IMG/VR virus record: IMGVR_UViG_3300046010_009783
Coordinates: 1 to 32,122 of that record
Length of the DNA stretch: 32,122 nucleotides
Direction: 5' to 3' (one strand)
From: a virus
Below are positions 2,742 to 23,135 of the stretch, in pieces. The notes under the pieces were generated by a model that saw only the letters and a program-made list of their open reading frames with translations, searched no databases and had not been told where the DNA came from. Numbering within the stretch: position 1 is the stretch's first letter; every line of letters starts with the position of its first letter. Position numbers and translations under genes: made by a program.

Positions 2742-2972
2742 ATGGATAACCTAATTAATACAGAACAAAACCTACCAAAAATTGACCTTAAAGAACAACC
2801 AACTATTACCTGTGAGGAGTGTGGGTCAAAATACTTTAAAGAAGTAGTTCTAATCAAAAAAGTTTCTAAAATGTTAACAGGTAGTTTTGAAGATACCTTA
2901 GTACCATTCCCAACTTATCGTTGTGATGATTGTGGACACGTTAATCCCGACTTCGAATTATTTGATAAATGA
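2742..2972 (+). CDS. Small zinc-ribbon protein
   Basis: A 76-residue protein with two CxxC knuckles, CEEC (C24, C27) and CDDC (C61, C64), separated by a beta-hairpin-like segment. This is the arrangement of a zinc ribbon. The CDDCGHVN knuckle resembles those of nucleic-acid-binding ribbons. It starts one base after the previous stop and overlaps the next gene by ATGA, so it is part of the operon. A DNA, RNA or protein-binding accessory role is likely from the fold; the partner is unknown. Confidence 0.7.
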   Translation: MDNLINTEQNLPKIDLKEQPTITCEECGSKYFKEVVLIKKVSKMLTGSFEDTLVPFPTYRCDDCGHVNPDFELFDK

Positions 2973-3172
2973 TAGATAACAAGATATTATTGGAAACTTA
3001 TATGATTGGTTTCTCTGACGAGTTGAAAGGTGAAACAAGGGAATTCAAAGACCCAATGTTAATAAGAGCATATGAGTTGGGAAAAGTTGATGCCTTTGTT
3101 GGTGATGATGTTATGTCCGTTAATTACCAATCTGACGAACATTTATTAAAACGAATTAAAAATTATGATTAA
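2969..3172 (+). CDS. Small conserved-looking phage protein, function unknown
   Basis: A 67-residue protein with the pattern AYELGKxDAFVGDDVMSVNYQSDE followed by a basic helix. To my knowledge similar A-Y-x-x-G...GDDV...YQS proteins occur in large environmental phages without an assigned function. It overlaps the zinc-ribbon gene by four bases and SbcD by eight, so translational coupling to the recombination nuclease is likely. No catalytic motif can be named. Confidence 0.6.
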   Translation: MIDNKILLETYMIGFSDELKGETREFKDPMLIRAYELGKVDAFVGDDVMSVNYQSDEHLLKRIKNYD

Positions 3173-3941
3173 AAAATTGGTTCATTTCTCAGATTTGCAT
3201 TTGAGATTAATTAAAGACCACGACCTATATAAAACAATCCTTACGGATATGTTTAACCAATTCAAGGAAATACAACCTGATAGAGTCGTATTTACAGGCG
3301 ACCTAGTACATAGTAAAAATCAAGTCAGCCCTGAACTTATTGAAATGGTAAGGTGGGTATTAGATGAATGTTCAAAGATTGCCAAAACAATTGTTATTGT
3401 TGGTAACCACGATATGTTGGAGAACAACTTATCACGATTAGACACATTAACCCCCATCATCCAATCAATGGACAATGACAATATTGTTTATTATAAGGAT
3501 AGAGGTGTATATCAAGACGAAAATATAGATTGGGTTGTTTATTCATTATTTGAACATAACATTCCACCAGTTATAGAGAAGTCAGACAGATTAAAGATTG
3601 GGTTATTTCACGGACCTATTGTTGGTTTATACACAGATATTGGATATAAGTTTGAGACAGGATATGAGGTCAGTAAGTTTGAAGGATGTGATATTGTTCT
3701 ATGTGGTGATATACATGCCAGACAAACGATTTATTTGGATAAAACACCAATAATCCAAGTAGGCTCAACAATCCAACAAAACTTTGGGGAATCTTTACGG
3801 AAACACGGATTTGGAATATATGATGTTATTAAAGATGATTATTCATTTGTTGACTTGAATAATCCTCGACCATTCCTTAAGTTTGAGATGAACTCATTTG
3901 AAGATATTATTGATGGAAAAGAAAAATTACTTAACGCTTAA
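3165..3941 (+). CDS. sbcD: SbcD/Mre11-type nuclease (T4 gp47-like)
   Basis: A 258-residue calcineurin-like metallophosphoesterase. The five metal-binding motifs are in order: SDLH (D10, H12), GD (D46), GNHD (N81, H82), FHG (H149) and GDIH (H184). Together with SbcC/gp46 it should form the Mre11-Rad50-type complex that processes DNA ends for recombination-dependent replication. At this length it keeps the catalytic core plus a short cap, as phage gp47 proteins do. It starts inside the preceding gene (8-base overlap), and the next gene begins within its last codons. The SbcC partner lies 1.8 kb downstream rather than adjacent, with six small genes between. Confidence 0.92.
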   Translation: MIKKLVHFSDLHLRLIKDHDLYKTILTDMFNQFKEIQPDRVVFTGDLVHSKNQVSPELIEMVRWVLDECSKIAKTIVIVGNHDMLENNLSRLDTLTPIIQSMDNDNIVYYKDRGVYQDENIDWVVYSLFEHNIPPVIEKSDRLKIGLFHGPIVGLYTDIGYKFETGYEVSKFEGCDIVLCGDIHARQTIYLDKTPIIQVGSTIQQNFGESLRKHGFGIYDVIKDDYSFVDLNNPRPFLKFEMNSFEDIIDGKEKLLNA

Positions 3942-4533
3942 TAAACAAAACCAAAAAGATTTAACTGATTATTGTAAGTTAAATAATATTGAAGATGTTG
4001 ATAAGTTCTTCCAGAAATGTTTTAAGAGGGGATATGATATTGAAAGATATGGATTGATTGGAAATACAAGTGAACCTGAAAAAATAATAGAATATGTTGA
4101 AAAAGAAGTTCCTATTGAGGTTGTTAAATATATCGAGAAAGAGACAATTAGAGAAGTCCCAATCGAAGTTATTAAAGAGGTTGAAAAGGAGGTCATTAAC
4201 ACAGTCTATGTCGAGAAGGAAGTCCCAATCGAAAAGATAGTTGAGGTAATAAAAGAAATACCTATTTACATATCAGGTGACACTCAAATTATTGAAAAGA
4301 TAATTGAAATTCCAATTGAGGTTATAAAAGAAGTTGAAGTAGTTAAGGAGATTGATAAACCAAATGAAAAGATGGGGATGTTACAAGAAACCTTGATGAA
4401 ACTGAGAAGGGAAATGGGGGATAAAGACAAAACAATTACAGAACTCAACAATAAGATTGAACAATTAGAGAAATTGGTATCAAACACTGGTGCCATATAT
4501 ATGAAAGGGTCAAACCTCAGTCAAAATCTTTAA
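3913..4533 (+). CDS. Repeat/coiled-coil protein with (K/E)EVPIE repeats
   Basis: A 206-residue protein from ATG 3913, inside the sbcD gene; a TTG at 3898 is also in frame but less likely. The N-terminal ~50 residues look globular. Residues ~60-150 are degenerate repeats of E-V-P-I-E-x-[IV]-[IVK] (for example EKEVPIEVVKYIEKE and EVPIEVIKEVEKEV). The C-terminus is a coiled coil (LQETLMKLRREMGDKDKTI...LNNKIEQLEKL). Alternating hydrophobic and charged residues with regular Pro suggest an extended rod. Its place between the SbcD and SbcC genes suggests a structural or tethering role; this is inference. The gene ends just before a hairpin. Confidence 0.7.
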   Translation: MEKKNYLTLNKQNQKDLTDYCKLNNIEDVDKFFQKCFKRGYDIERYGLIGNTSEPEKIIEYVEKEVPIEVVKYIEKETIREVPIEVIKEVEKEVINTVYVEKEVPIEKIVEVIKEIPIYISGDTQIIEKIIEIPIEVIKEVEVVKEIDKPNEKMGMLQETLMKLRREMGDKDKTITELNNKIEQLEKLVSNTGAIYMKGSNLSQNL

Positions 4534-4544
4534 TTTTTTATTAG

Positions 4545-4576
4545 TCCCACTATTTTAATATAAAAAAGTAGTGGGA
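4545..4576 (+). promoter_or_regulatory. Intergenic hairpin that buries the GTG start of the next gene
   Basis: TCCCACTA (4545-4552) pairs perfectly with TAGTGGGA (4569-4576) around a 16-base AT-only-rich loop. The GTG start codon of the GIY-YIG gene is at 4571-4573, inside the 3' arm. The arm is not followed by a clean T-run, so it is a poor terminator. Its likelier effect is to mask translation initiation on read-through mRNA. Compare the hairpins at 14368-14399 and 22447-22486. Confidence 0.6.
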
Positions 4577-4870
4577 TTTATTTACTTCATCAAAGACAAC
4601 GCAAATCAAGTTAAAATAGGTTACACAAAAAGAAATGTAAAAGATAGGGTTAAAGAGTTGAACTCGCCAAATTTAATTACTATACTTGAATACGAGACAA
4701 AGTACCCCACACAACTCGAAAAAGCATTACATTTCAGGTTCAAAAAACATAATATTGAAAGAGAATGGTTTTGTTTGGATGACTTCAAGGTTGAAGAACT
4801 GAAACAGATATGTGAAATGTTGAATGAGGGACTTTGTGCAATAAAAGAAAACAATTATTTCAAATTATGA
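4571..4870 (+). CDS. T5orf172/MUG113-type GIY-YIG nuclease-like protein
   Basis: A 99-residue single-domain protein matching the T5orf172 branch of the GIY-YIG superfamily: FIYFIK at the N-terminus in place of GIY, KIGYTK (15-20) in place of YIG, R26 in the first helix, E50 with H54 (LEKALHFRF), and REWF (64-67). The start is GTG. No ATG lies upstream in frame before a stop at 4556, and domain homology begins at the second residue. The GTG sits in a hairpin. The gene overlaps the next by ATGA. Members are found in phages and mobile DNA, often without proven cleavage activity, so nuclease function is probable but not certain. Confidence 0.75.
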   Translation: MGFIYFIKDNANQVKIGYTKRNVKDRVKELNSPNLITILEYETKYPTQLEKALHFRFKKHNIEREWFCLDDFKVEELKQICEMLNEGLCAIKENNYFKL

Positions 4871-5220
4871 TTTCAGTACAATTAATTACTTGGTTTATCC
4901 TATCTTACGGATTAATGAACATTATGGTTTATGGAAGTATATTCCAAGGACTTAGAGATTTCTTCAAGAATCTTGGAAATAATCCGTATCAACCATTCCA
5001 ATTCTTTTTCCACTTCATTGATGGTATTTTATCTTGTCCAATGTGTTTCAGTTTTCACGGAGGATGGTTTTTATCATTGGTAATATTCTCACCTGTTCAT
5101 ATATTGTTTGGAGTTCCTATTTGGGGTTCTTGGTTCTTTGATGCTATTTTATCATCAGGTGCTGTATGGGCAATCAATGCAATCGTTGAATATTTTGAGG
5201 AAAATAGACCATCTAAATAA
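4867..5220 (+). CDS. Small integral membrane protein with SCPMC motif
   Basis: A 117-residue protein starting at ATG 4867, which overlaps the previous stop as ATGA; an in-frame TTG at 4834 is rejected. It has about three hydrophobic segments: residues ~3-24, ~45-75 and ~80-105. Between the first two a LSCPMCFSFHGGW motif resembles the membrane-proximal C-P-x-C-x-x-F-W/H-G motif of DUF1360-type phage membrane proteins. That assignment is tentative. The function of such proteins is unknown; location in the inner membrane is predicted. Confidence 0.65.
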   Translation: MISVQLITWFILSYGLMNIMVYGSIFQGLRDFFKNLGNNPYQPFQFFFHFIDGILSCPMCFSFHGGWFLSLVIFSPVHILFGVPIWGSWFFDAILSSGAVWAINAIVEYFEENRPSK

Positions 5221-5705: not shown

Positions 5706-8078
5706 ATGGATTTATTCAATCCACCCCCAGATTACAATTACAATTTTATGATTAAAGATATTGATTTTAACAAATTTGATAACCCATATATTCAAGTTGT
5801 ATGGGAGGATTATCCTGAAAACTTTACACAAGAAAAGATAAAGAGTGTTAGACATTACTTCCAAAAGAAGTATAACTCAACTAATGTTAATGTAATAACC
5901 AAAACTAAATCTAGTGAGGTTACAACACAAACAATTGATGTATCATTCAATATCTTGGATAAGAACTATCAATATGTATTGGTAAAATCATTCTTGGAAA
6001 ACAAAAATCTAACAAATCTAACAGAATCCATTCTTAATTTGGATAAAGCTGTTGATAGTAGATTATTATTAAATGAAAGTGAGATATCACCCTTTAAAAG
6101 ATGGTATATCAAAAACATTGAGTTCTCCAATTTCTTATCGTATGGTGAAAATCAAAAGATTGATTTTGATAAGTGTAATGGTATCTCGGTGGTGGAATCA
6201 AATCCCCCTAACTTTGGTGGGAAAACGGTTTTAACAGTGGATTTATTGTTATTCTTATTCTTCAATGAAACAACCAAAACATCAAAAGCTGAAGAAGTTT
6301 TCAATAGATTTTCTAGTAAGGATAAAGTTCACGTCAAAGGTGAAATTATCATTGATGGTGATGAATATGTTATTGTTAGAAATATTGAAAGAAAGAAGAA
6401 AAAAGATGGGGATTGGAATGTAAAAACTGAATTAGATTTCTTTAAGAAGTTATCAGATGGAACATTACAGAACTTCACAGGAGAACAAAGGAGAGAAACT
6501 GAAAGTTTCATTAAAACTTCTATTGGTACGAAGGAAGATTTCTTAATGACAATTTTAACTACGGCAACAAACCTTGAAGAGTTAATTGACTCTAAACCCA
6601 CAGCAAGAGGGCAGGTATTGTCTAGATTTATGGGGTTGGACTTTATTAAAAAGAAGGAAGACACTGGTAAAGAAATCTATTCAGAGTTTTCCAAGTCAAT
6701 GTTATCAAATGTATATTCAAGTGAAAAGTTGAAATCAGACAATGATGGATACAAAGAAAGAATTGAATTACTACAAACGGAAAACATTACCCAACAAAAC
6801 AATTTGATTGATGTTCAAAATAGGATAATCAAAGGACAAGAATATAGAGATACATTACTAAAATCCAAACATACGGATATTGATATTGAAATCTCGAATA
6901 TTGTTCCTGAGCGTATTGAAAGTGAAATCATCGGGATTAAAACCCAAAAACAAAGTGTTGAAAAACAATTAAAAGAACTCAAAGTGGTTGAACCAACAGA
7001 GTTTTACTCGGAACAAGAACACGACTGGTTAAAAGATGAACACAAACATTATTACAAAAAGATTGTCCAATTAGAACAAAATATTAAATCGATTGAAAGT
7101 TTAAAATCTTCAGTTGATGGTGGAATTAAATGTGAACATTGTGGTATTGAATTGATGATGGCCTCAATAACCCAAAACAAAATTGCTGAACTTGAAGGAC
7201 TTATCATTCATAAAACCGAAAATGAGGTGTTAATGAATGATTTAATAATCAGAGAAGCTAAGTATGTTCAGTTAAAAAAAGAATTTGATGAGTATGAGAA
7301 AAACAAACTTATCAAAGAAAAATATGAACTTACAATTGAGGGTTATCTGATGAAAATCAAAGGATTGGAAGATAAGTTGGAAAAGTTTAACTTGTTACAG
7401 GATAAAATATCCACAAACAACAAGATTGAAACCCAACTTATCAAAGCCAACCTAAGATTAGATGAACTAGATAGAGAAAAATCATCAGTTCAAAGAATAT
7501 TGGATTCTAACAACTATCAAATTCAAAGTTTAAAAGATAAGATTGAACAAAATATCCAAATGATTGAGAAAATCAAAGTTGAAGCTGAAAAAGAAAGAAT
7601 CTATAAAGTTTATTTGGAAATCTTTGGAAAGAATGGTATATCTAAAACAATAATGAAAACAATGATTCCAATGTTGAACTCTGAGTTACAAAGATTATTG
7701 GAAGATAGTTGTCATTTTAGATTGGAAATCAACATAAATGACAAGAATGAGGTTGAATTTGTTATGATTGATAACAACACCCAAGTTGAGAAATTAATGT
7801 CCTCTGGGTCAGGTTATGAAAGAACCATAGCATCATTAGCATTGAGAGCTGTATTGACAAAAATATGTTCTTTACCAAAACCGAATATTGTTGTTATGGA
7901 TGAGGTATTTGGAAAGATATCAAACGAGAACTTGGAAATGGTTGGTGAATTTTTCACTAAAATTAAAAACTATTTTGAAAAGATATTCGTTATAACCCAC
8001 AATCCATTGGTTAGTAATTGGGCTGACAACATTATAAAGATTACCAAAGAAAACAATATTAGTAGTGTGAGTCAGTAA
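5706..8078 (+). CDS. sbcC: SbcC/Rad50-type ATPase (T4 gp46-like)
   Basis: A 790-residue SMC-like ATPase, partner of the SbcD nuclease. The ATP-binding core starts near residue 132 (RWYIKNIEFSNFLSYG). The Walker A region is SNPPNFGGKT (165-174), atypical because the first Gly of GxxGxGK[ST] is missing. Coiled coils flank a zinc-hook CEHC (C476, C479). The C-terminal half-site has the signature MSSGSGYER (698-706), Walker B VVMDEVF (D732, E733) and a THNP switch His. The first ~130 residues are an extra N-terminal region not found in T4 gp46. ATP-driven DNA tethering and control of nuclease activity are known for the family. A strong terminator follows. Confidence 0.9.
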   Translation: MDLFNPPPDYNYNFMIKDIDFNKFDNPYIQVVWEDYPENFTQEKIKSVRHYFQKKYNSTNVNVITKTKSSEVTTQTIDVSFNILDKNYQYVLVKSFLENKNLTNLTESILNLDKAVDSRLLLNESEISPFKRWYIKNIEFSNFLSYGENQKIDFDKCNGISVVESNPPNFGGKTVLTVDLLLFLFFNETTKTSKAEEVFNRFSSKDKVHVKGEIIIDGDEYVIVRNIERKKKKDGDWNVKTELDFFKKLSDGTLQNFTGEQRRETESFIKTSIGTKEDFLMTILTTATNLEELIDSKPTARGQVLSRFMGLDFIKKKEDTGKEIYSEFSKSMLSNVYSSEKLKSDNDGYKERIELLQTENITQQNNLIDVQNRIIKGQEYRDTLLKSKHTDIDIEISNIVPERIESEIIGIKTQKQSVEKQLKELKVVEPTEFYSEQEHDWLKDEHKHYYKKIVQLEQNIKSIESLKSSVDGGIKCEHCGIELMMASITQNKIAELEGLIIHKTENEVLMNDLIIREAKYVQLKKEFDEYEKNKLIKEKYELTIEGYLMKIKGLEDKLEKFNLLQDKISTNNKIETQLIKANLRLDELDREKSSVQRILDSNNYQIQSLKDKIEQNIQMIEKIKVEAEKERIYKVYLEIFGKNGISKTIMKTMIPMLNSELQRLLEDSCHFRLEININDKNEVEFVMIDNNTQVEKLMSSGSGYERTIASLALRAVLTKICSLPKPNIVVMDEVFGKISNENLEMVGEFFTKIKNYFEKIFVITHNPLVSNWADNIIKITKENNISSVSQ

Positions 8079-8167: not shown

Positions 8168-8701
8168 ATGAAATACCTACTTTCAATTTTCATCGAACAC
8201 AACGAACAAGAATTATTTGTAAAATCTATTGGTAAGGAGATTAGTACTATCTCATCCAAAAATGGTGTAAAATACTTTTTCGGCCCTCAGACAGCATTAT
8301 TCACTTTCGAAACGAAACTTTCTTTTGAAGGTGTAAAAAACTTTTTTGACTCAATCCTAAGTGATTTGTCAATAACACATATCCTTGTCCCAATAAAAAC
8401 TGACAAAATGTCATATTGGTTCGAAAAAGAACACGAGAAACTATTGTTTGGTACGGATATTTGTGCAACGAATGAAGAATATTCAGAGGAAGAACAAGAA
8501 GAAATGAGAGAAGCAATTTTGGGTGACTTAACCAAAATCTTTGAGAAAGAAATTATCGAAGAAAATAGAGTCAAACAAAAAATTGTTCCTACCTTGGATG
8601 ACCTTTTGGATAAGATTAATATGAGTGGGTTGAACTCACTAAATGAAGAAGAAAAAGATTTGTTAAAACAATATTCAAAATCAAGGATTGGATTTGGCTG
8701 A
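8168..8701 (+). CDS. Unknown protein co-encoded with the sigma factor
   Basis: A 177-residue protein of no family I recognise. The N-terminal ~95 residues form an alpha/beta pattern (MKYLLSIFIEH...KYFFGPQTALFTFET...ITHILVPIKTDKMSYWF). A very acidic helix (EEYSEEEQEEMREA) and a C-terminal segment LDDLLDKINMSGLNSLNEEEKDLL follow. The last segment resembles the short D-[LI]-L-D-K-I-x-x-x-G-x-x-S-L-x-x-E-E-K tail common at the ends of Bacteroidota proteins such as rhomboids, so the protein is probably complete near 8680. It overlaps the sigma-factor frame by 14 bases. Direct linkage to a sigma gene raises a regulatory role; that is inference. Confidence 0.65.
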   Translation: MKYLLSIFIEHNEQELFVKSIGKEISTISSKNGVKYFFGPQTALFTFETKLSFEGVKNFFDSILSDLSITHILVPIKTDKMSYWFEKEHEKLLFGTDICATNEEYSEEEQEEMREAILGDLTKIFEKEIIEENRVKQKIVPTLDDLLDKINMSGLNSLNEEEKDLLKQYSKSRIGFG

Positions 8702-10044: not shown

Positions 10045-10834
10045 TTTATTTACTTGGATTAAAAAAAACCCCATCCGTTCAATGTTCTTAGTCCCCATCT
10101 TCTTGGTGGCTGGTATATCTATATCCCATGTGGTTGCATGGTATGACATTACGAATCCATTTAGTTGGGCAATCTACCTTTCAATAGCTATTGAGATTGG
10201 TGCCATAACAGCACTGATTGCCGCTACACAAAGAATTAAGGGTGGAGTATGGTTTATGTTCGGTTTGGTAACATTCGTTCAAATGGTGGGAAATATATTC
10301 TATTCATATAAAGAGATTGACCCGACAGGAGAACTATTCACATCTTGGGTTGAACTCACATCTCCAATATTTGAATTATTTGGAACAGAACCAACTGATA
10401 TAATTGCACATAAAAGATGGTTGGCAATATTAGGTGGGGGACTTCTTCCTGTGATATCTCTAACCTCATTACACTTCTTTGTGAAGTATGAAGAAACTGA
10501 AAAACCAGTTGTTAAAAATGATGTAATAGACAAGGATTTGGAAATAGCTTCTTTGTTTGACTTAGAAACAACTTTGGAACAAGAAGAAAAACCTAAAGTA
10601 AAAAGGGGTAGAAAAAAGAAAGAAATCGTGGAACAATGGGAAAATAGTGGAATATTAGATGAACTAAAACCTATGGGTGAGACATCACTAATTCCAATAG
10701 TTTTAGAACCAAATCAAGAACAACAAATTGATGAAATTGAAACTAATGAAATAAAAGAAGAAATACCGGTAATACCAACTCGTCCAACAAAACTGACATA
10801 CACTAAGCCAAATGTATCCATAGATAGATTATGA
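10037..10834 (+). CDS. Four-helix membrane protein with long cytoplasmic tail
   Basis: A 265-residue protein. Hydrophobic segments lie near residues 14-36, 43-65, 70-90 and 128-150, with Gly-rich turns (LGGGLLP). The C-terminal ~115 residues are soluble and charged, with a basic patch KVKRGRKKK that resembles an AT-hook-like or membrane-proximal basic motif, then an acidic, Pro-containing end. No transporter family is recognised. It overlaps the acidic gene by 8 bases and the amidase-like gene by 4, so the three are co-expressed. Being next to an amidase-like enzyme makes a lysis or membrane-remodelling role possible but unproven. Confidence 0.62.
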   Translation: MNNLFTWIKKNPIRSMFLVPIFLVAGISISHVVAWYDITNPFSWAIYLSIAIEIGAITALIAATQRIKGGVWFMFGLVTFVQMVGNIFYSYKEIDPTGELFTSWVELTSPIFELFGTEPTDIIAHKRWLAILGGGLLPVISLTSLHFFVKYEETEKPVVKNDVIDKDLEIASLFDLETTLEQEEKPKVKRGRKKKEIVEQWENSGILDELKPMGETSLIPIVLEPNQEQQIDEIETNEIKEEIPVIPTRPTKLTYTKPNVSIDRL

Positions 10835-11427
10835 TGGATTTAATCAAATATGGAGATTTTAAACCTTCAGGTAAACAAAAGAAAAAGAACCAAATAATTC
10901 TTACACACACAAGTAGAAATGTGGAGAATTATTTGGCTTCTTTACGTTATAGACATAATGGGAAATATAAAAAAATACCAAACTACATTGTTACAAAAGA
11001 AGGTAAAATTCTCAAACTTTTGGAAAACAATGAACATACTGAATATTTCTCCGAAAAAAATATTAATAGAAATAGTATTATAATTTGTTTAGAAAATTTG
11101 GGTTGGTTAGAGAAACAACCATTAGAAAACCAGTATGTTAATTGGGTAGGTGATATTTATAAAGGTAAGACGTTCGAGAGAAAATGGAGAGATTATTTTT
11201 TTTGGGAACCGTATCCTGAAATACAAATTCAATCATTAACAATTCTTTGTAAATCAATAATGAAAGAATTGAGAATATCAAAAGATATAATCGAACATAA
11301 TACAAAAATAAATGGTATCGAAAAATTCGATGGGATTGTAACTAGAAGTAATTTTGACACATACTTCACTGATTTAAGTCCTGCATTTAATTTCGAAGAT
11401 TTTAGAAAAAAAATAGAAAATGAATAA
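10831..11427 (+). CDS. N-acetylmuramoyl-L-alanine amidase-like protein (Amidase_2 fold)
   Basis: A 198-residue protein whose motif order fits the Amidase_2/PGRP fold: ILTHTS with H26 (first zinc ligand position), IPNYIVTKEGKILKL (the S-Y-H-Y-L-I-x-x-D-G-x-I-Y equivalent), NRNSIIICLEN (the N-x-x-S-I-G-I-E-I-x-N strand), YPEIQIQSLTILCKSI (the Q-x-x-x-L-x-x-L helix), EHN with H156, and DLSPAFNFEDF with D181 in the place of the last ligand before P-x-F. Some canonical residues differ, so activity may be altered. It could be the endolysin or a virion peptidoglycan hydrolase cleaving the lactyl-peptide bond. No signal peptide. The overlapping membrane-protein gene supports a lysis context. Confidence 0.65.
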   Translation: MMDLIKYGDFKPSGKQKKKNQIILTHTSRNVENYLASLRYRHNGKYKKIPNYIVTKEGKILKLLENNEHTEYFSEKNINRNSIIICLENLGWLEKQPLENQYVNWVGDIYKGKTFERKWRDYFFWEPYPEIQIQSLTILCKSIMKELRISKDIIEHNTKINGIEKFDGIVTRSNFDTYFTDLSPAFNFEDFRKKIENE

Positions 11428-12722: not shown

Positions 12723-12730
12723 TATTTATA
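12723..12730 (+). promoter_or_regulatory. TATTTATA element before the 12745 gene
   Basis: TATTTATA lies 14 bases before ATG 12745 in the short gap after the 12722 stop. It matches the other copies of this window in sequence and spacing. Candidate late-promoter -10 element. Confidence 0.42.
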
Positions 12731-14367: not shown

Positions 14368-14399
14368 ATTCTCCATAAGATAAGTTTCTTATGGAGAAT
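14368..14399 (+). terminator. Hairpin with U-tract whose 3' arm contains the next start codon
   Basis: The 12-bp perfect stem ATTCTCCATAAG (14368-14379) / CTTATGGAGAAT (14388-14399) has an 8-base loop and is followed by TTTTATAA, a good intrinsic terminator after the 12745 gene. The ATG of the next gene is at 14391-14393, inside the 3' arm. The element therefore terminates transcription and would also hide the start codon on read-through mRNA. Confidence 0.7.
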
Positions 14400-20394: not shown

Positions 20395-22128
20395 ATGGAA
20401 AAGTTATACGATTTTAGTTTATCAAGTTATCATACTATGCTTTACAAAGATTATTGTGAAGTAGATGAAGATATATTATTAGGTGAACATGACTCAGACA
20501 CACCACCCATAATAGCAAGCTTCAACAAATTCTCATTAATAAGAAAAGAGTTTGATTACGACAAAACTTTATTAGGTGAAGAACCATATGTTGAGAATTA
20601 TAACAACTTGTTTGCTCATTTGATGTTCAAGAGGTTATCACTCTATGTTGAAAAAAATGAAGATAAAGTTTCAATAAAATTCTTTTTATATTACAAAGGT
20701 AGACAAGCTGGAAAAAAATATTTCAAGAAAGATACTATCTGTCATTTTTTAACCTATAACTTCAAACAAAATTGTCTTTATAATGGTCATATCAAAAATT
20801 ATCATCTTAAACGAAAAAAAAAGAGTCAATTAGGGAAAAACCTTTGGTACAATAAACCAATTCAGTCATTTATTCAAACATGGGTAAATCATACTAGAGG
20901 AATGAAATTGAATGACTTTGATAAAATTGAAAAATCAGGTAAAGAAATTAATGAAGCCATTGTATTGTTTTTACAAAATATACCAGATGTAAATCCTGAA
21001 AACCACGATTATTCTTACGACAACATTTTATACAAAAGATACTTGGATGGGATTGGTGTTAAAGTACCAAACAACTGGATGTATTTCAACAGAATCTTTC
21101 CACAGATAACAAAAAAGATATTCAAGAAATATAACTATAAGTTTGTGGATGCTTTTATGGGTTTAAATGATTTCACTGGTGATAAAATCAAGAGAGTATT
21201 ACATAGTGTAGAATCAACAGATGGGGTTGAGTCATTAAAGTTTGCACTTGATTTCTTTGGGAAAGATTTCATATTATCTCAACCTGATGTCTTCATTAAA
21301 GAAATATTGGAAAGTACATCTTTCTTTATGGATTGGCAAGTGTTTATTAATCACCATAGAATTAGTTTGGTTGACTTCACCAAAACTGAGGTAAAATATT
21401 GTTTCGAAATTTTCAAGTTGGTTGTTAGGGGTGAAATTAATTTACATTCATTCACTGACCATATTGCTTACAAGATTAGATTAAAAAACTTTGAACCTGT
21501 AATGTGGAGAGCCAAGAATTATGATACTTTTGCTGAAGAACATTATATTTGGTCTGAAAAGATTGGTTCGATGAAAAGTGCTGAGTATAGAAGATTATAT
21601 GATGAAAAGTTCAAGGAATATATCGAAACACCCATCTTTGATTATTATCCTGTATTACTGACTGAAAGTAAGGAATACAATATGGAGAGTTTCCTCCAAT
21701 CAAATTGTGTTAGAACTTATACAGATAAACCAGCATCCATTATCATATCTTTAAGAAAAGGGGGAATTCACTCCAAAACAAGGGCAACCATTGAATATAA
21801 GATTGAAAATGATTTTGATAAAATTAAATTCAATCGTGTCCAATCCTTGGGTAGATATAATGAAAAGTTGGATGAAAGTTGGACAAAAGTTTTAATTGAA
21901 CTTGACACCAAAATGTTTTATACTTTGGAAAATGATATCTTTAAGTTGCCTGAGGTTGAAATAAAATATGGTGGGAAAACATTTATGTCACATTTGATAT
22001 TTGTTGAGGATAGTGTCAAAGCTCAATTATATAATGGTACAACTAGTAAACTACCACCAAGAAAAATTGTTACATTCACAAATAATCCTGTAAAAAACAT
22101 TTATAATCCAACATTAGAACTATTATGA
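20395..22128 (+). CDS. PcfJ-like domain protein
   Basis: A 577-residue protein. The C-terminal third has the PcfJ-type pattern: MESFLQSNCVRTYTDKPASI (N437, C438 where many members have HCV), then ISLRKGG, RATIEYKIE, and VQSLGRYNEKLDESW (equivalent to Q-x-x-G-x-x-N). The N-terminal two-thirds is Lys- and aromatic-rich, largely helical, with no recognisable domain. PcfJ-like proteins are found on plasmids and phages; their biochemical role is not established. The His-to-Asn change at the usual HCV site is notable. It overlaps the next gene by ATGA and begins 11 bases after a terminator T-run. Confidence 0.65.
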   Translation: MEKLYDFSLSSYHTMLYKDYCEVDEDILLGEHDSDTPPIIASFNKFSLIRKEFDYDKTLLGEEPYVENYNNLFAHLMFKRLSLYVEKNEDKVSIKFFLYYKGRQAGKKYFKKDTICHFLTYNFKQNCLYNGHIKNYHLKRKKKSQLGKNLWYNKPIQSFIQTWVNHTRGMKLNDFDKIEKSGKEINEAIVLFLQNIPDVNPENHDYSYDNILYKRYLDGIGVKVPNNWMYFNRIFPQITKKIFKKYNYKFVDAFMGLNDFTGDKIKRVLHSVESTDGVESLKFALDFFGKDFILSQPDVFIKEILESTSFFMDWQVFINHHRISLVDFTKTEVKYCFEIFKLVVRGEINLHSFTDHIAYKIRLKNFEPVMWRAKNYDTFAEEHYIWSEKIGSMKSAEYRRLYDEKFKEYIETPIFDYYPVLLTESKEYNMESFLQSNCVRTYTDKPASIIISLRKGGIHSKTRATIEYKIENDFDKIKFNRVQSLGRYNEKLDESWTKVLIELDTKMFYTLENDIFKLPEVEIKYGGKTFMSHLIFVEDSVKAQLYNGTTSKLPPRKIVTFTNNPVKNIYNPTLELL

Positions 22129-22436
22129 CAAACAGAAACAGAGTTAATGATATATTCAAAGAAAGATTTAAACAAATCCCCTCTTCATTATATATAAAAA
22201 ATGAAAATATTTCTAAAGAAAACTTGGATAAGTTTTTAAGTAAATCTCATTTGATTTTTGTTAATAAGAAGGTGGCGGAAGGAAAAATAGTTGAGATGGA
22301 TAGATTAGTTGAATACGATTCGAATGGTATTCTTATTTACATAAAAGGGGTTGAAGATATATTTATTCTAACCACAACAGATAGATTGAATGTTGCGGAG
22401 TTTACTTTACATAACTTAATAAAACTTAATAAATAA
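22125..22436 (+). CDS. Small protein of unknown function, coupled to PcfJ-like gene
   Basis: A 103-residue protein: a basic N-terminal helix (NRVNDIFKERFKQI), a helix SKENLDKFLSKSHLIFV, and strands (GILIYIKGVEDIFILTTTD) plus a final helix. ATGA overlap with the PcfJ-like gene implies coupled translation. No family recognised. A hairpin and the homing endonuclease gene follow within 50 bases. Confidence 0.6.
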   Translation: MTNRNRVNDIFKERFKQIPSSLYIKNENISKENLDKFLSKSHLIFVNKKVAEGKIVEMDRLVEYDSNGILIYIKGVEDIFILTTTDRLNVAEFTLHNLIKLNK

Positions 22437-22446
22437 TTTAATTTTG

Positions 22447-22486
22447 ATACAACTTAGTGATATTTATAATAAACACTAAGTTGTAT
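22447..22486 (+). promoter_or_regulatory. Hairpin burying the endonuclease start, with TATTTATA in the loop
   Basis: The 13-bp perfect stem ATACAACTTAGTG (22447-22459) / CACTAAGTTGTAT (22474-22486) has a 14-base loop that contains TATTTATA (22461-22468). The ATG of the endonuclease is 22485-22487, at the base of the 3' arm. There is no T-run, so it is not a terminator. mRNA begun at the loop motif would lack the 5' arm and leave the start codon free. Read-through mRNA would fold and hide it. Confidence 0.65.
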
Positions 22487-23135
22487 GGAAAACGGAAAAA
22501 TATATAAAATTACAAACACCGAAAACAATAAAGTTTATATTGGTTGTACGATTAATACACTAAAACATAGATTTGAAGAACATTGTTACAGATGTCTGAA
22601 AACTAACATCAATACAAAATTATGTAATAATGTTAGAAAGTATGGTGTTGAAAAGTTTACAATTGAGTTGATTGAAGAATGTTCATTGGATGTTATATAT
22701 AATAGAGAGGTTGAAGTTATTAAGGAACACAATAGTTTTGAGGAAGGATTAAACTCTACAGTAGGAGGAGAGGGATGTTTAGGTTATAAACACTCACCTG
22801 AAATAAGAATGAAGATATCTAATGCGGTTAAAGATGGTAAATCACATAAAGGTAAAACTTATGAAGAGATTTATGGAGATAGAGCACAAGAAGAAAAAAA
22901 TAAGAGAAAACAAGCGGGTTGGTCTAAAAATTTGAATGAAGAAGAAAAGTTAAAAGTTATTGAAAAAATAAGAAACATTAAACGAAGTAAATCTAAAACC
23001 AGTATTGAAACTATTAATGGTATTAAAAAATTAATAAGTGAAAATGTTAAGCCAAGCGAAATAAATAAACAATATCCTGAAGTTCATATTAGAACAATAT
23101 ATAGTATAAAAGCTGGAACTAGATGGAAAGATTAA
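22485..23135 (+). CDS. GIY-YIG homing endonuclease (free-standing)
   Basis: A 216-residue protein. N-terminal GIY-YIG nuclease domain: KIYKIT (5-10), KVYIGCT (16-22), catalytic-type Arg R29 (LKHRFEEH), VRKYGVEKFTIELIEE, and E75 (YNREVEVI) at the catalytic Glu position. A NUMOD3-like segment LGYKHSPEIRMKISNAVK (~99-116) follows. The C-terminus (ETINGIKKLISE...SEINKQYPEVHIRTIYSIKAG) is a helix-turn-helix of the DNA-binding type. This architecture is that of phage homing endonucleases such as the SegA/I-TevI group. It lies between ordinary genes, without an intron boundary visible, so it is free-standing. Confidence 0.88.
   Translation: MENGKIYKITNTENNKVYIGCTINTLKHRFEEHCYRCLKTNINTKLCNNVRKYGVEKFTIELIEECSLDVIYNREVEVIKEHNSFEEGLNSTVGGEGCLGYKHSPEIRMKISNAVKDGKSHKGKTYEEIYGDRAQEEKNKRKQAGWSKNLNEEEKLKVIEKIRNIKRSKSKTSIETINGIKKLISENVKPSEINKQYPEVHIRTIYSIKAGTRWKD

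Follow-up and report, generated by a model that had tools for sequence, protein, structure and literature searches.

Does a hairpin that encloses a start codon hold back the translation of an inserted gene, and does it travel with that gene? The question arises in a 32,122-nt stretch of virus DNA (IMG/VR record IMGVR_UViG_3300046010_009783, hereafter the window). In this stretch, the GTG start codon (4571-4573) of a T5orf172/MUG113 gene (GIY-YIG superfamily, 99 aa, 4571..4870, + strand) lies within the 3′ arm of a hairpin at 4545-4576 on the same strand.

Predicted structure of the hairpin

The 5′ arm of the hairpin is TCCCACTA (4545-4552) and the 3′ arm is TAGTGGGA (4569-4576). The 16-nt loop between the arms, TTTTAATATAAAAAAG, consists of A and T except for a single G at 4568. 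An earlier note had described this inverted repeat, with the GTG in the 3′ arm and an AT loop with one G, and we found its coordinates and sequence to be correct. In RNA, additional A-U and G.U pairs extend the stem to 14 pairs (4543-4578). The predicted fold has an energy of −17.5 kcal/mol (z −4.5), and 0 of 200 shuffled sequences were equally stable. Perfect inverted repeats of 8 bp that include four or more GC pairs and enclose a 3-20 nt loop occur 6 times in the window, compared with 0.67 times in shuffled sequences. Among 443 start regions from contigs of related phages, the 4545 region was in the top 0.7% for stability, and the unpaired probability of its start codon was 0.00, the lowest of all. 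The hairpin is not a chance structure. By prediction, the initiation region is paired in read-through RNA, as in I-TevI-type control.

The T5orf172 gene product

Judged by sequence, the 99-aa product is a clear match to the T5orf172/MUG113 family, with 57.3 bits for PF13455 (MUG113, cut-off 22.3) and 48.6 bits for PF10544 (T5orf172, cut-off 20). The match to PF01541 (GIY-YIG) was slightly below the cut-off (21.4 vs 22.6). Residues G2, F3, Y5, K15-I16-G17, R26, and E50 are invariant across five relatives (GF[IV]Y and VKIGY motifs). The elements of a GIY-YIG-like motif (GxxY, KIG, Arg, and Glu) are all present in the product, and we presume these residues to have a catalytic role. The dN/dS ratio was ~0.10-0.18 among relatives wherever it was computable, indicating that the protein is under purifying selection. 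The match spans residues 2-83 of 99, and no DNA-binding part or further Pfam domain was found beside the nuclease domain. The product is too small to hold a separate DNA-binding domain. Its nuclease activity is putative and suggested by its sequence. AlphaFold models of five T5orf172-family sequences had a mean pLDDT of 57, and a sequence search for solved-structure relatives of the product gave no convincing match.

Phage group and its translation starts

No isolated phage matched the window at the nucleotide level, and no relatives were found in bacterial genomes. The close relatives are IMG/VR contigs that reach 194 kb, and contigs of the wider group reach 318 kb. Ribosomal protein bS21 is encoded in 4 of the 7 related contigs tested. 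Freshwater bS21 phages were predicted to infect Bacteroidetes (PMC9723584); the likeness of the present contigs to them lies in gene content. No Shine-Dalgarno signal was found in the start regions of these phages, which are A-rich at −13 to −3 (−13 to −8, and −3). Flavobacterium starts likewise have no Shine-Dalgarno signal and are A-rich, and structure near the start and an A at −3 tune their initiation (PMC6847099). Without a Shine-Dalgarno signal, initiation in these phages should be sensitive to structures that cover the start. We found no transcription map for this phage group.

Insertion site of the cassette

The hairpin and the gene form an inserted cassette of ~333 nt (4534..4866, + strand), whose approximate borders come from comparison with empty coiled-coil/membrane-gene junctions. 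On the left it is flanked by a coiled-coil protein gene (3898..4533, + strand), and on the right by a membrane-protein-like gene (4867..5220, + strand) whose ATG overlaps the TGA of the T5orf172 gene. An SbcD-like gene (3165..3941, + strand; phrog_100, E 5.5e-30) and an SbcC-like gene (5706..8078, + strand; phrog_77, E 6.9e-43) are 1.8 kb apart, with several genes in between. Hairpin control might keep SbcD-SbcC expressed, as the earlier note proposed.

Using the flanking membrane protein as the query, we obtained 80 loci. Of these, 68 had no T5orf172 match, some of them being too short to cover the whole region. Most related contigs have no T5orf172 gene. At many empty junctions, the stop codon of the coiled-coil gene and the ATG of the membrane gene overlap or are a few bases apart, and there is no hairpin. 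Because the flanking genes abut without a hairpin at empty sites, the hairpin and the gene entered together as one cassette. The hairpin was also present in 7 of 7 distinct relatives that have the gene, and what lies upstream of it varies (the coiled-coil gene in the window, L006, and L207, and other small genes in L008, L045, L046, and L047). The claim that the inserted unit includes the hairpin therefore holds.

At a single junction, the T5orf172 gene is present in some relatives and missing from others, the distribution expected of a homing endonuclease gene. In L100, L115, L147, and L045, an HNH endonuclease gene directly precedes the same membrane gene, which makes the junction a hot spot for nuclease genes. 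This hot spot lends support, short of proof, to a homing-type origin of the T5orf172 cassette. The earlier view of the gene as the nuclease of a mobile element has a clear family match behind it, but no DNA-binding domain, second insertion site, or homing was found.

Conservation of the stem among relatives

Protein searches and a DNA pattern independent of the loop were used to collect relatives from IMG/VR, resulting in 14 stretches of seven sequence types. The stem and the GTG triplet are kept in 14 of 14 stretches, whereas synonymous differences in the T5orf172 gene range from 0.14 to 0.82 among relatives. The non-coding 26 nt at 4545-4570 are identical in the window and L008 despite a pS of 0.43 in the gene. 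By arithmetic from pS, the neutral chance of this identity is ~4e-7. The loop varies in sequence and is 16, 17, or 18 nt long across relatives, while the stem is retained.

Several natural variants of the stem were observed. In L047, the outer U-A pair is changed to C-G, a two-sided compensatory change that includes a silent Gly change (GGA to GGG). In L207, a silent GGT is uncompensated and opens the outer U-A pair. The changes in other relatives are mostly swaps between G.U and A-U. In an alignment of six sequences, 98.8% of the pair cells were standard, compared with 47-61% when the 3′ side was slid. The single two-sided change was reached by 221 of 500 shuffles, so the covariation in these six sequences is not above the control. 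Because the covariation is not significant with six sequences, the case rests on conservation against synonymous divergence.

Two outcomes that would speak against the link between stem and gene were looked for. None of the seven distinct relatives had the T5orf172 gene with an ATG start and no stem. A stem without an intact T5orf172 reading frame was seen only in L046, which has a one-base frameshift beside an inverted hairpin. L045 and L046 are nearly identical in the T5orf172 gene, and the hairpin of L046 (~2966-3002) is the exact reverse complement of that of L045 (~2972-3010). The L046 hairpin is extended symmetrically: a G precedes its 5′ arm, and its 3′ arm is followed by an additional C, which breaks the reading frame. 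A template switch within the palindrome would explain a one-step origin of this inversion.

A promoter-like motif and the second GIY-YIG gene

The motif TATTTATA is enriched in the upstream regions of the 194-kb relative, where it occurs in 23 of 103 regions with 3.9 expected. It is located mostly 3-30 nt before starts, including that of the prohead protease gene, and G001 (L070-L079) has 34 sites. This enrichment close before starts, with the prohead protease gene among them, leads us to read the motif as a putative late-type promoter. In the window it occurs at 12723, 22461, and other positions. Among 19 GIY-YIG/HNH genes sampled in the group, 14 have an exact TATTTATA within 45 nt and 18 have one with at most one mismatch. 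The exact motif has a background of 12% for all genes and 0.7% for random 45-mers. The HNH genes of L100, L115, L147, and L045 each have their own TATTTATA or a near match. In all six T5orf172 relatives examined, the motif was absent within 45 nt. A promoter whose transcripts lack the 5′ arm, the other element of I-TevI-type control, was thus not found for the T5orf172 gene.

The earlier note had also described a second GIY-YIG gene with the same layout. There is a hairpin at 22447-22486 (+ strand) before a GIY-YIG/NUMOD3 homing-endonuclease-like gene (22485..23135, + strand), which lies between the gene 22125-22436 and a thioredoxin gene. The site of this insert is empty in G002, G003, and G005. 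However, only the A and T of its ATG (22485) are inside the hairpin, at the foot of the 3′ arm, and the loop holds TATTTATA (22461-22468), which is absent from the 4545 hairpin. Because the motif is in the loop, an mRNA started there would lack the 5′ arm. By analogy, the 22485 gene fits the T4 I-TevI arrangement. Genes related to it keep TTGGTG-ATATTTATAA-CACCAA, from which TTAGTG/CACTAA in the window differs by a two-sided change; one relative, L032, has two mismatches in the stem.

The proposal that hairpin control is general for the mobile elements of this phage found no support in the wider comparison and is too broad. About 5 of 15 start regions of GIY-YIG genes outside the T5orf172 family were in the most structured 5%. 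Hairpins on the endonuclease genes of the group are frequent, not universal. The feature that these cassettes generally have in common is TATTTATA, which the T5orf172 cassette does not have.

How the hairpin may act

The explanation we lean towards is that the 4545 hairpin is a cis-acting translational brake, which travels with the T5orf172 cassette and acts on read-through mRNA. RNA polymerase would read through from the upstream genes into the cassette. In the read-through RNA, folding would pair the GTG and the A-rich initiation region. Bacteroidota-type ribosomes, which do not use Shine-Dalgarno sequences and prefer unstructured A-rich starts, would rarely initiate at the closed GTG. The nuclease-like product would thus be scarce, and the neighbouring genes would keep their own starts. 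Computation shows that the structure is predicted to form, is conserved, and is inherited together with the gene. We infer the translational block, the read-through transcription, and the nuclease activity. Counting against a brake are the absence of an internal TATTTATA, the thin covariation, the opened outer pair in L207, and the passing of the stem in a terminator scan. Because there is no internal TATTTATA promoter for a hairpin-free mRNA, the switching-on of the gene is left unexplained.

The main rival, which we consider doubtful, is a weak intrinsic terminator or attenuator at the gene start, in which the stem and the following UUUAUUU lower transcription into the insert and the pairing of the start codon is a by-product. 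The terminator scan lists 4543-4578 together with the similar hairpin 14368-14399, which has seven U after the stem in relatives, and a simple U-tract score for 4543-4578 is 4.1, near that of other candidate terminators. T4 mobE and segF have an intrinsic terminator in the 5′ coding end (PMC2988022) and share with the T5orf172 gene a stem-loop at the gene start, a U-rich coding sequence after it, and no promoter of their own. Here, however, an A or G interrupts the U run, termination is only a candidate, and the start codon itself is in the 3′ arm, which a terminator does not need. Terminator-like hits are near chance (7 in the scan vs 5.9 in shuffles), and a strong terminator would be polar on the downstream genes, as far as SbcC. 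The T-rich tail after the stem would be expected without termination, because it codes for GFxYF. We favour translational closure over termination because the start codon lies within the arm, the U run is interrupted, and genes further downstream still need to be transcribed. A host-type promoter of the cassette is quite unlikely. In that case the mRNA would begin with the hairpin, which would stabilise it or be opened by a protein or a bS21-modified ribosome; bS21 is indeed encoded in related contigs. The candidate promoter is TAATTTTT (4531..4538, + strand), which resembles the Bacteroidota −7 element TANNTTTG (consensus from PMC6847099). In the alignments, all seven relatives keep it as TANNTTTT, always equally far from the 5′ arm. 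Start sites in F. johnsoniae are 4-5 nt past the −7 element (PMC6847099), so the 5′ end of the cassette mRNA would be at ~4543. The candidate is without the final G, which is nearly invariant in the −7 element, inspection by eye showed no −33 TTTG, and such octamers arise easily in AT-rich DNA.

The palindrome could also work as DNA, either as an operator bound by a dimer for autorepression or as an invertible or mutagenic palindrome, which we regard as very improbable. The former has a precedent in I-TevI, which uses an operator to repress its own promoter (PMC2988022), and the inverted hairpin of L046 relative to L045 shows that an event at the DNA level took place in the palindrome. However, the variable length between the arms shifts the half-site spacing by 1-2 bp and so turns the half sites around the helix. 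Because it puts the T5orf172 gene out of frame, the L046 inversion resembles damage more than a switch, and the loops of the remaining thirteen stretches are all in one orientation. Finally, a functionless hairpin merely inherited with the gene would fit the single compensatory change, which is not above shuffles, and the opened pair in L207. It is hardly credible given the unchanged non-coding arm and loop bases at 43% synonymous divergence and the lowest start-codon accessibility of the 443 regions.

Two further candidates were rejected. A late promoter in the 4545 loop (TATAAAAA, resembling the T4 late box TATAAATA) does not agree with the changed or inverted loops of relatives, and the group motif is the sense-strand TATTTATA. 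Translational coupling from the upstream stop was discarded as both the distance and the upstream gene vary among relatives.

Comparison with known systems

Hairpins sequester the ribosome binding sites of I-TevI, I-TevII, I-TevIII, segB, and Aeh1 mobE (PMC2988022). The T5orf172 case shares with these T4-type genes an inserted GIY-YIG/HNH gene, an initiation region predicted to be paired in read-through RNA, and a hairpin that is part of the insert. The T4-type genes pair the Shine-Dalgarno sequence, whereas the T5orf172 hairpin pairs the start codon and an A-rich leader. They also have a late-type promoter in the hairpin, which the T5orf172 cassette does not. The phage here is of Bacteroidota type, and the product belongs to the T5orf172 subfamily and has no DNA-binding domain. 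Within the same window, the 22485 gene matches the T4 arrangement far better than the T5orf172 gene. In early read-through RNA, a hairpin similarly closes the start regions of T4 gene e (lysozyme), soc, and further late genes (PMC3014915, PMC2988022). These genes have a late promoter that removes the 5′ arm, and none was found for the T5orf172 gene.

T5orf172 homing endonucleases of ICP1-like and T5-like phages (PMC10448857) share the nuclease domain family and the presence or absence at a defined junction used by other nuclease genes. They carry CapR, DUF723, or DUF4397 DNA-binding parts, whereas the 99-aa product is a single domain, for which homing is putative. Neither PMC10448857, on T5orf172 nucleases, nor PMC9723584, on bS21 phages, mentions hairpins or TATTTATA-like promoters.

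A broader scheme, which is speculative and rather unlikely, is that the nuclease cassettes of large phages of Shine-Dalgarno-free Bacteroidota carry two portable controls. One would be a promoter inside a start-closing hairpin (22485 type), and the other a promoterless closed start (T5orf172 type) that needs an opening factor, for example bS21 or the nuclease itself, with the start gated by structure alone. Hairpin gating of inserted endonuclease genes is known in T4-type phages of Shine-Dalgarno hosts, and our analysis suggests it also for large uncultured phages of non-Shine-Dalgarno hosts. Without Shine-Dalgarno initiation, few means of controlling translation remain, and structure at the start codon is among them. 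The cassette, with its natural compensated, opened, and inverted variants, offers material for studying structure-only gating in Flavobacterium. The motif TATTTATA is a candidate promoter motif for this phage group.

Other hairpins and inserts in the group

Further structured starts were observed. A third start codon in the window (ATG 14391, 155-aa protein) is in the 3′ arm of a 13-bp hairpin at 14368-14399, which is conserved with changing loops in G001, G002, G003, G005, and G006 and has as many as seven T behind it. At G001 25224 (L071 5224), a 325-aa protein has its ATG in a hairpin, AATCCTCTATAAT/ATTATGGAGGATT, that is wholly downstream of TATTTATA. An inverted repeat at 10878-10948 of the window is in the 5′ coding part of the gene 10831-11427, and G003 has a perfect 14-bp version of it at the called start region of an amidase (lysozyme-like) gene (43881-44372).

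At 8665-8681 of the window, ~210 bp present in L001, L003, and L006 are missing between the near-repeats CAATATTCAAAAT and CAATATCAAAATC. The loss removes the start of a sigma-factor gene and fuses the remainder to the preceding gene, and it is either a deletion variant or an assembly fault. Two likely inteins were also seen. In L008 (11114-11719), SbcC is interrupted right after the GGK of Walker A (CVRGDTEIE...), and in L045 (4567-6135), a DNA-methylase-like gene has an insert from CFAGETEV to ILTHN.
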